The notes under the pieces were generated by a model that worked only from the letters and a program-made list of their open reading frames with translations, had not been told where the DNA came from and did no database searches. A stretch of 20,059 bases of DNA from a virus. The stretch covers positions 1 to 20,059 of IMG/VR virus record IMGVR_UViG_3300020404_002217; one strand, given 5' to 3'. Of this stretch, positions 1,968-19,478 are shown piece by piece. Both the position numbers and the translations under genes were made by a program. The number at the start of each line of letters is the position of its first letter. Positions within the stretch are counted from its first letter, which is position 1.

Positions 1968-2351
1968 ATGGAGTCTAAAGAAAGGGTTATTTACATATTA
2001 AAAATCGTAGTACTATTCTGTATAATATTTTGGTTATTATTTTCAGATAAGGAAGAATATGTTGAAGATTATAATGCTAAAATAGAAGCATTAGAACAAA
2101 AAGTCGATTCGTTACATCATATAAATGACGAATTGACTTTTAAAATCGACACTTTAAATGGCCAGATAACAAAATTAGATAAACAAATTGATATTAAGGA
2201 TAACAGAATAAATAGCTTGAAATATGAAATTAATACAAAAGTTAATGCCGTTGATGATTTTGATGATGATGAGCTTGAAAAGTTTTTCACAGAGCGTTAC
2301 AGACAGTACCTCGATTCAACTGAAAAAACCAATAGCACGTCTAGTAATTAA
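1968..2351 (+). CDS. Membrane-anchored coiled-coil protein, candidate inner spanin (Rz-like), 127 aa
   Basis: One N-terminal membrane segment (about residues 7-26, VIYILKIVVLFCIIFWLLFS) is preceded by a short charged cytoplasmic start. It is followed by a heptad-patterned helix (about 36-90) with regular L/I/V spacing (IEALEQKVDSLHHI and onwards), then an acidic DDFDDDELEKFF tail. A single N-terminal anchor with a periplasmic coiled coil is the architecture of inner-membrane spanins (Rz), which link inner and outer membranes at phage lysis. The last 128 bases overlap the next gene in another frame, as Rz/Rz1 genes often do. No lysozyme or holin is visible nearby, so the lysis role is inferred from architecture alone. 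A generic membrane-bound coiled-coil protein is the alternative. Confidence 0.6.
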   Translation: MESKERVIYILKIVVLFCIIFWLLFSDKEEYVEDYNAKIEALEQKVDSLHHINDELTFKIDTLNGQITKLDKQIDIKDNRINSLKYEINTKVNAVDDFDDDELEKFFTERYRQYLDSTEKTNSTSSN

Positions 2352-2637
2352 AGATTTAATAACTGGAGATGGAGCTAAAAATGAGTTAGCTTTAACATTA
2401 GATAAAATACAATTATTAGAACAAAAAGTTGTTTTAAAAGATAGTGTTATTTTAAATCTTACTTCTCAAGTAGGAAATTTTGAATCTATAATGTCTACTA
2501 AAAGTGATCAATTAGCTTTATCTCAAGAATTATCCAAAAAACTCCAAACAGATTTAAAAAAACAAAAACTAAAAACTAAATTAATGGGGGGAGCAGGAAT
2601 ACTAGTAGCTGTAGGGGTTGCTATTTTAGTTAAGTAA
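2224..2637 (+). CDS. Secreted/periplasmic coiled-coil protein overlapping the upstream gene, candidate spanin partner, 137 aa
   Basis: The reading frame begins inside the upstream gene (+2 relative frame) and shares 128 bases. The N-terminus is a good signal peptide: basic MKLIQK, hydrophobic LMPLMILMMMSL, then KSFSQ with likely cleavage after Q23, a form common in Bacteroidota. The mature part has KKPIARLVIKDLITGDG (about 34-50) and a helical coiled-coil region (60-115). It ends with a basic stretch and a hydrophobic C-terminal segment (about 120-136, MGGAGILVAVGVAILV). No lipobox cysteine is present, so it is not a classical outer-membrane spanin lipoprotein. The next in-frame ATG beyond the signal region is far downstream, which supports a start inside the overlap. 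A role together with the upstream protein in envelope disruption is inferred. Confidence 0.65.
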   Translation: MKLIQKLMPLMILMMMSLKSFSQSVTDSTSIQLKKPIARLVIKDLITGDGAKNELALTLDKIQLLEQKVVLKDSVILNLTSQVGNFESIMSTKSDQLALSQELSKKLQTDLKKQKLKTKLMGGAGILVAVGVAILVK

Positions 2638-18032: not shown

Positions 18033-18545
18033 ATGATATATTGGTTTACGGGTCAACCCTGTTCGGGAAAGACCGTTTTAGCAAACATGCTTAAAGAAAA
18101 ATATCTTCCTCATGCTTATCGCATAGATGGAGATGAAATGAGAGAATTATTTACAAATAAAGATTATTCTATAAAAGGTAGAATAACTAATGTAGATGCT
18201 GCTCAAAAAATTGCCCATTATTTACATAATCAAGGAAAAGATGTAATTGTATCCTTAGTTTCTCCCTATTTAGATCAAAGAGAAGAATTTAAAGATATAA
18301 TGAAATGGCAATTACATGAAATTTTTGTACATTATGATGTAGAAAAAGGAGCTAGAGGTAGAGAAAATTATCACGTTATGCAATTCCAAAAACCAGATTT
18401 AGATTATATTGATATTGATACTACTAACCAAACACCAGAAGAATCATTAAATATAATAGCTAAAAAAGCTGGTTTGGATGTAGTATATCCTAAAGGATCA
18501 TTACTAAATGAATTACCACCTTCAGATTACCAATTAGATAATTAA
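18033..18545 (+). CDS. cysC: Adenylylsulfate (APS) kinase-like protein, 170 aa
   Basis: APS kinase phosphorylates adenosine 5'-phosphosulfate to PAPS, the activated sulfate used for assimilation or sulfation. Motifs are Walker A GQPCSGKT (7-14), DGDEMR (32-37), a helix containing NVDAAQKIAHYL, and VIVSLVSPYLDQREEF (71-86), which matches the VSPY...R signature of this family. The C-terminal lid region (GARGRENYHVMQFQKPDLD) is shorter than in bacterial CysC but in the right place. The length is a little under the usual 195-210 aa. It leads an overlapping cluster with a HAD protein, a nucleotidyltransferase, a DUF2061-like protein and a glycosyltransferase. Similar small kinases exist for other substrates, so the symbol is a family-level call. 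Confidence 0.75.
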   Translation: MIYWFTGQPCSGKTVLANMLKEKYLPHAYRIDGDEMRELFTNKDYSIKGRITNVDAAQKIAHYLHNQGKDVIVSLVSPYLDQREEFKDIMKWQLHEIFVHYDVEKGARGRENYHVMQFQKPDLDYIDIDTTNQTPEESLNIIAKKAGLDVVYPKGSLLNELPPSDYQLDN

Positions 18546-18891: not shown

Positions 18892-19273
18892 AGCAGACAA
18901 AGAAAGTTCAAGTACAGAAGTAAAATATTCATTTTTTGCTGGGAGATGGCAACCTTTACATAAGGGTCATTTATGGTTAATTAATGAAAGATTAAAAGAG
19001 GGTTATAATGTTTGGTTAGGTATTAGAGATGTAAAACCAGATGAAAAAAATCCTTGGACTGCAGAACAGATATTAGAAATGGTTAAAGAAGGTGAATTAA
19101 AAGAACTTATAGAAGCTGGTAAAGTGTTACCAACAATTATTCCAGATATTGAATCTATTAATTACGGTAGAGGAGTAGGATATGATATTATAGAACATAT
19201 CCCCCCAAAAGAGATTGGTAATATATCTGCTACTTCTATTAGGGAACAAATGAAAAAAGATGGTAAGTTATAA
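18872..19273 (+). CDS. HxGH nucleotidyltransferase (NMNAT/cytidylyltransferase-like), 133 aa
   Basis: This is the second nucleotidylyltransferase of the window. Signature residues are FFAGRWQPLHKGH (21-33) with H30-x-G-H33, IRDVKPDEKNPWTAEQ (51-66), VLPTIIPDIESINYGRGVGYD (85-105) and the adenylyl-binding ISATSIR (118-124). The GR-Q-LHKGH and ISATxIR pair is that of NMN adenylyltransferase-like enzymes, a superfamily that also includes ATP sulfurylase. An untypical lysine/serine-rich leader of about 17 residues precedes the fold. It overlaps the HAD gene by 20 bases and the DUF2061-like gene by 14, consistent with one operon. Beside an APS kinase, an adenylyl transfer to sulfate is a testable idea but not shown. 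A nucleotide-sugar step is equally possible. Confidence 0.82.
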   Translation: MAELKAKADKESSSTEVKYSFFAGRWQPLHKGHLWLINERLKEGYNVWLGIRDVKPDEKNPWTAEQILEMVKEGELKELIEAGKVLPTIIPDIESINYGRGVGYDIIEHIPPKEIGNISATSIREQMKKDGKL

Positions 19274-19478
19274 AAGACATATTGCAAAAACAATTTCATG
19301 GAGAATAATAGGAACACTAGATACAATAATACTTTCAGGAATAATAACGGGTTCATGGGAGATAGGATTGGCTATTGGAGGCGTAGAAGTAATTACCAAA
19401 ATGGTACTATATTTCCTACACGAAAGGGCTTGGTATAAATTAAGTAAGTTTGGAATAAATGGTAAAAAACAAACCTAA
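19260..19478 (+). CDS. DUF2061-like small membrane protein, 72 aa
   Basis: The protein matches the DUF2061 pattern: SYKRHIAKTISWRIIGTLDT (3-22), a hydrophobic ILSGIITGSWEIGLAIGG (24-41) and the signature KMVLYFLHERAWYKL (47-61). Two short membrane segments are likely (about 15-30 and 36-53). The function is unknown. In bacteria DUF2061 proteins are often found near sulfate-activation genes, as I recall, and here the APS-kinase-like gene lies three genes upstream. It overlaps the preceding gene by 14 bases and contains the start of the next one. Confidence 0.85.
   Translation: MVSYKRHIAKTISWRIIGTLDTIILSGIITGSWEIGLAIGGVEVITKMVLYFLHERAWYKLSKFGINGKKQT

Follow-up and report, generated by a model that had tools for sequence, protein, structure and literature searches.

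The window, that is, the whole stretch of viral DNA analysed here (20,059 nucleotides), carries two genes on the + strand that overlap in different frames. ORF1 (1968..2351; ATG start, 127 aa) is predicted to encode an i-spanin-like protein with a short N-terminus, one transmembrane segment and a long helical periplasmic domain. The transmembrane segment covers residues 7-25 (1986..2042) according to hydropathy and summed apparent free energy, and AlphaFold2 places helices at residues 3-96 and then 100-125. Alignments revealed a C-terminal motif, ELEKFFTERY (2271..2300), which is also conserved in the lineage of Flavobacterium phage immuto and in which E102, L103, F106, F107, T108, R110 and Y111 are invariant.

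ORF2 (2224..2637; ATG start, 137 aa) begins inside ORF1 and is predicted to encode an exported coiled-coil partner that lacks a lipobox. Its predicted signal peptide (residues 1-22; 2224..2289) ends in SFS and is followed by Gln23 (2290..2292), which is invariant in the aligned homologues and is the predicted mature N-terminus according to the Bacteroidetes Q-rule. The highest conservation in the alignments is found in the block IQLKKPIARLVIKDLITGDGAKNEL (residues 31-55; 2314..2388), and the conserved block IQLKKPIARLVIKDLITGDGA lies between the signal peptide and the long helix. This coiled-coil-like helix extends over approximately residues 49-118 (2368..2577), with a pLDDT of ~80-93 in the core of the AlphaFold2 model. 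A C-terminal hydrophobic tail, seen in hydropathy and free energy, occupies residues 120-136 (2581..2631), with a Lys-rich stretch before it and one Lys after it. The next gene, from 2639, encodes a T4-type large terminase.

An earlier note on this DNA had described a 128-base overlap of two such genes, an N-terminal anchor and a coiled coil in the first protein, and a signal peptide in the second starting within the first gene. All of these were recovered: the genes lie at 1968-2351 and 2224-2637, the hydrophobic segment of ORF1 is strong and precedes a long predicted helix, and the sequence starting at 2224 resembles a signal peptide. The hydrophobic C-terminal segment that the note ascribed to ORF2 was also found, though its hydrophobic character is clear only in the marine lineage, to which the window belongs.

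The overlap (2224..2351, 128 nt) codes in both frames, as it is kept in relatives and pN/pS is below 1 in each. Nucleotides 2281-2300 code twice, for the invariant FFT.RY of ORF1 and for the near-invariant SFSQ of ORF2. When ORF1 was recoded synonymously, the ORF2 frame stayed open across the overlap in 0.4-0.7% of trials; the open frame is hence more than chance. Both ORFs are present in 141 loci, and the overlap is kept in 86 of 87 distinct related pairs, the exception being a 120-kb marine relative (G001), where ORF2 is frameshifted (L159, at ~8525), the other relatives being intact. Among 33 same-length pairs, pN/pS in the overlap was 0.33 in the ORF1 frame and 0.53 in the ORF2 frame, while the control, non-overlapping parts read in the wrong frame, gave 1.0-1.5. 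Nucleotide identity in these pairs was 0.87 inside the overlap versus 0.75-0.77 outside. These substitution patterns indicate that purifying selection is acting on both overlapping frames.

Relatives and genomic neighbourhood

The closest terminase from an isolate is that of immuto, with 60% identity. The carrier of the window is considered to be a phage of marine Flavobacteria (Flavobacteriia), a host group that fits because the host of immuto is a Flavobacterium and because ORF2 has a Q-rule export signal. In immuto, gp84 and gp85 are homologous to ORF1 and ORF2 (35% and 42% identity) and are annotated as hypothetical proteins only. They share with the window pair the gene order, the overlap (89 nt), the FSQ site and the C-terminal tail; unlike the window pair, they lie inside a lysis cassette, and gp85 has a Cys in a GDGC motif. 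The deposited start of gp85 (L152:46087-46488) is at 46129, 42 nt late, by which most of the signal peptide is lost; an in-frame ATG at 46087 restores it in full. With the immuto ORF2 as query, 80 contigs including immuto itself were retrieved, in which ORF2 occurs in 52 distinct versions and the overlap ranges from 74 to 119 nt. The overlapped architecture is seen in ~140 distinct pairs, always in the order ORF1 then ORF2. A search of a bacterial and archaeal genome collection for the family yielded a single MAG contig.

All pairs of the marine lineage (139/139) lie directly upstream of the T4-type terminase, a position that says nothing about lysis. Two further genes of the window, noted by eye downstream of the head genes, may encode an adenylylsulfate-kinase-like P-loop protein (18033-18545) and a small two-helix membrane protein (19260-19478). 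In immuto, the terminase is ~73 kb away from the pair, which closes a unit of gp79, a GH19 endolysin, a holin, a small membrane protein, gp83, ORF1 and ORF2, bounded by terminator-like sites before gp79 (L001:3226) and just after ORF2 (L001:6359). The terminase neighbourhood was also considered as a hint of a packaging function, and this was ruled out by the place of the pair in the immuto lysis operon.

Of the 47 immuto-type loci whose upstream sequence was long enough, 36 have a GH19 endolysin and a Phage_holin_4_1 holin close upstream of the pair; given the relatedness of the loci, these do not count as independent events. The endolysins match the endolysin family phrog_181 (E ~1e-61) and Pfam GH19 above its cut-off. 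The loci that were drawn out mostly have endolysin, holin, ORF1 and ORF2 as immediate neighbours, with the holin gene typically overlapping ORF1 by 14 nt. In another context, of the L182 type, an Amidase_2 protein (E=5e-13) is encoded two genes upstream of the pair. Association with holin or endolysin genes is therefore seen in the immuto lineage and, as an amidase, in the L182 type, and is absent from the window's own lineage. A G001 protein with an endolysin match (phrog_33083, E=2e-17) is encoded between genes homologous to immuto gp79 and gp86, at ~48 kb from the pair; the gp79-gp86 block is where immuto keeps its pair. Just upstream of this endolysin-like gene, three G001 genes in a row (L161:13678-15765) encode a Q-rule protein of 413 aa resembling an outer-membrane beta-barrel, a lipoprotein (183 aa) and a membrane protein (94 aa), and no homologues of this trio were found in immuto or the other loci. 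Since the pair changes its genomic place and is twice found near lysis genes, with two types of endolysin, the best interpretation is that of a lysis module.

Export signal and C-terminal tail of ORF2

The absence of a lipobox from ORF2, as claimed in the earlier note, holds across the family: none of the ~136 distinct homologues has a consensus lipobox. Nor did any of the + strand frames up to 1.5 kb from the pair contain a conserved ORF with a lipobox. A lipoprotein frame hidden in or near the pair was considered and rejected, as none is conserved and the one match lying inside the pair in the marine set is the non-conserved transmembrane Cys of ORF1 itself. Four immuto-type ORF2 members carry Cys17 within SLNC, a sequence that does not match the lipobox consensus, and retain FSQ. 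When cysteines were surveyed with periplasmic cysteines and covalent dimers in mind, ORF2 of the immuto lineage was found to have a conserved Cys and marine-lineage ORF2 none; in the first set of 85 sequences, the only Cys is that of immuto, at position 46.

The Gln of the (F/S)SQ site is present in all 85 ORF2 sequences of the first set, and FSQ in all 52 of the second, immuto-seeded set. Under the Q-rule described for Bacteroidetes (PMC5837995), a Gln becomes the first residue once signal peptidase I has cut. The invariant SQ of ORF2 fits such a cleavage, as far as can be judged from the sequence.

The summed apparent free energy of the tail is below zero in 83 of 85 marine-lineage sequences (median -1.13), while in the immuto lineage the median is +1.5, which is marginally hydrophobic. 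The tail is preceded by approximately five net positive charges and followed by one. By default, such a tail would be an inner-membrane stop-transfer segment; a stable N-out/C-in segment is weakly disfavoured by the positive charges on the periplasmic side. The outer membrane, to which the tail might attach according to the earlier note, and the inner membrane are equally plausible destinations, each at somewhat less than an even chance; that the tail enters no membrane at all is less likely. ORF2 has no lipid anchor that would tie it to the outer membrane.

Comparison with known spanins and alternative explanations

The pair resembles the overlapped two-component spanins typified by lambda Rz/Rz1 (Kongari et al. 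2018, PMC6139136) in that a type II inner-membrane coiled-coil protein is encoded first, the exported partner starts inside the first gene in another frame and ends beyond it, and the genes lie, in relatives, in a neighbourhood of lysis genes. It differs from that class in that ORF2 is a non-lipoprotein with a signal of the signal peptidase I type and an invariant SQ, has a hydrophobic C-terminal tail, is helical and not proline-rich, and matches no sequence family. On the i-spanin side, an N-terminal transmembrane segment and a periplasmic coiled coil are predicted, and the genes form a pair of the overlapped kind; on the o-spanin side, an outer-membrane lipoprotein with a lipobox was not found. 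The earlier note had proposed a variant of the Rz/Rz1 type. A spanin-type pair is supported by the relatives, where it directly follows the endolysin and holin genes within what looks like a lysis operon, but the proposal does not extend to strict Rz/Rz1 membership, as the lipobox of the o-spanin is missing. Without it, ORF2 is by definition not an Rz1-type o-spanin, and hence the pair was not filed as a member of the class; ORF2 nevertheless probably works like one. ORF1 does match the spanin family phrog_739 (best 1.5e-6), no better than unrelated coiled coils do, and PHROG and Pfam matches were rejected as proof of spanin homology for ORF1, since unrelated coiled-coil families score equally. 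A structure search of the PDB with the ORF2 model gave no match.

Unimolecular spanins such as T1 gp11 share with ORF2 an export signal at the N-terminus and a hydrophobic segment at the C-terminus, and marine-lineage ORF2 is likewise without periplasmic Cys. Unlike gp11, which is beta-rich, ORF2 is helical, has no N-terminal lipobox and is accompanied by an i-spanin-like protein; compared with the C-terminal segment of the unimolecular type, its tail is hydrophobic in marine-lineage members but reaches only a marginal value in the immuto lineage. The canonical unimolecular form, with a lipobox (VSC) and a C-terminal transmembrane segment, is seen in Flavobacterium phage FCL-2, where the protein (L171:11415-11798) looks like a unimolecular spanin and is annotated as hypothetical. 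A closer parallel in gene arrangement is offered by the Croceibacter phage P2559S (NC_018276), in which an N-terminally anchored ORF (27300-27674), directly after the endolysin, is overlapped by 167 nt by an exported ORF (27508-28065); the chance of an open frame across this overlap is ~1%. The second ORF resembles ORF2 in its Q-rule signal peptide (LALSQ) and in containing a coiled-coil-like stretch; unlike ORF2, it ends in a beta-type, aromatic-ended segment and not in a hydrophobic helix, and sequence similarity between the P2559S pair and the window pair was not detected. The start of this ORF (L166:27508-28065) is annotated at 27826 and was probably mis-called. In phages B124-14, P2559Y and phi38:1, proteins with an N-terminal anchor are encoded next to the endolysin, and no ORF2-like partner was seen there.

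The pair is real and conserved and very likely a lysis pair, and it is regarded as a distinct variant of the two-component spanin. That it is a two-component lysis device of a Flavobacteriia phage, functioning like Rz/Rz1, is considered likely with fairly good confidence. It probably breaks the host outer membrane at lysis without the lipid-anchored partner of known systems, a role made probable by the position of the relatives' pair directly behind the cell-bursting genes. In the proposed mechanism, ORF1 would be anchored in the inner membrane through its N-terminal segment, and its helix and the conserved FFT.RY end would lie in the periplasm. ORF2 would be translated from the start inside ORF1, exported by Sec and cut by signal peptidase I before Gln23, to leave a periplasmic coiled coil attached to a membrane by its C-terminal tail. 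Once holin and endolysin had removed the peptidoglycan barrier, ORF1 and ORF2 would engage, and the outer membrane would be disrupted or fused. Binding between ORF1 and ORF2, the choice of membrane by the tail and the outer-membrane disruption itself are inferred parts of this mechanism.

The strongest rival to a lipobox-free pair is a separately encoded lipoprotein, because a small one occurs in three loci and others are encoded elsewhere in the genomes. Here ORF1 would be the i-spanin, the real outer-membrane partner would be that lipoprotein, and ORF2 would be an accessory periplasmic or inner-membrane subunit, e.g., a regulator or scaffold. In L190, L206 and L209, Pro/Tyr/His-rich lipoproteins of 63-72 aa with a lipobox SC or AC (L190:5533-5751, L206:4152-4346, L209:1756-1947) are encoded 7-8 nt after ORF2, with a terminator-like sequence following in L206, and they look more Rz1-like than ORF2. 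They are confined to these three loci; none occurs in the other loci read, the complete immuto genome and the 120-kb G001 among them. Both lineages do have a lipoprotein in common, gp149 of immuto with a homologue of 40% identity in G001, and T4-like phages do not have their lysis genes in one cluster (PMC6139136), but the gp149-type protein is ~210 aa long and distant from the lysis genes. The lipoprotein common to immuto and G001 (211-217 aa; L153:26244-26897, L156:6359-6994) has no family match. The only constant partner of ORF1 is ORF2, and the separate lipoprotein is accordingly thought unlikely to be the answer.

Exported antiholins have a precedent in T4 RI. A pair that regulated the timing of lysis, as an antiholin or in lysis inhibition, with ORF2 sensing the state of the periplasm and with no disruption of the outer membrane, would agree with this precedent, with the envelope-targeting signals of both proteins and with the holin adjoining the relatives' pair. 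The overlapped architecture resembling i- and o-spanins and the long helices are typical of spanins and not of antiholins, and the pair is kept together even where no holin is nearby, which leaves a timing role very improbable. Slightly less probable again is a function outside lysis, in envelope modification, superinfection exclusion or the virion, for which the lysis neighbourhood in immuto would be a coincidence of operon structure. The marine-lineage pair does adjoin terminase and head genes, and other Q-rule secreted proteins, of unknown function, are encoded by Bacteroidetes phages (PMC10367356). Against this, the pair is accompanied by GH19 in one context and by an amidase in another, which are different types of endolysin, the immuto pair lies inside a terminator-bounded lysis unit, and a Sec signal peptide would be unusual for a virion protein.

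Significance for flavobacterial phages

In the spanin survey, ~13% of phage genomes, including those of the flavobacterial phages P2559S and P2559Y, were without a recognisable spanin; its authors noted that they had left other topologies unconsidered, e.g., an outer-membrane protein or an inner-membrane protein of type I (Kongari et al., PMC6139136). A survey of North Sea flavobacterial phages reported unimolecular spanin candidates in two phages (PMC8776804). No report of a lipobox-free spanin pair was found in a literature search that mainly covered freely accessible papers. The pair is a concrete and widespread spanin candidate for which an isolate is at hand, immuto on Flavobacterium sp. 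LMO8. Such pairs are overlooked by spanin searches that begin with the lipobox, and gene callers clip the starts of the second genes, as for gp85 in the deposited immuto genome. It is tentatively proposed, at a little under even chances, that flavobacterial phages have a lipobox-free two-component spanin, in which the lipid-anchored o-spanin is replaced by a C-terminally attached coiled coil processed by signal peptidase I, with P2559S suggesting a repeated origin. If this replacement is true, the polarity of the anchor is reversed; a repeated origin of lipobox-free partners in Bacteroidota phages, if true, would explain some of the phages filed as spanin-less.
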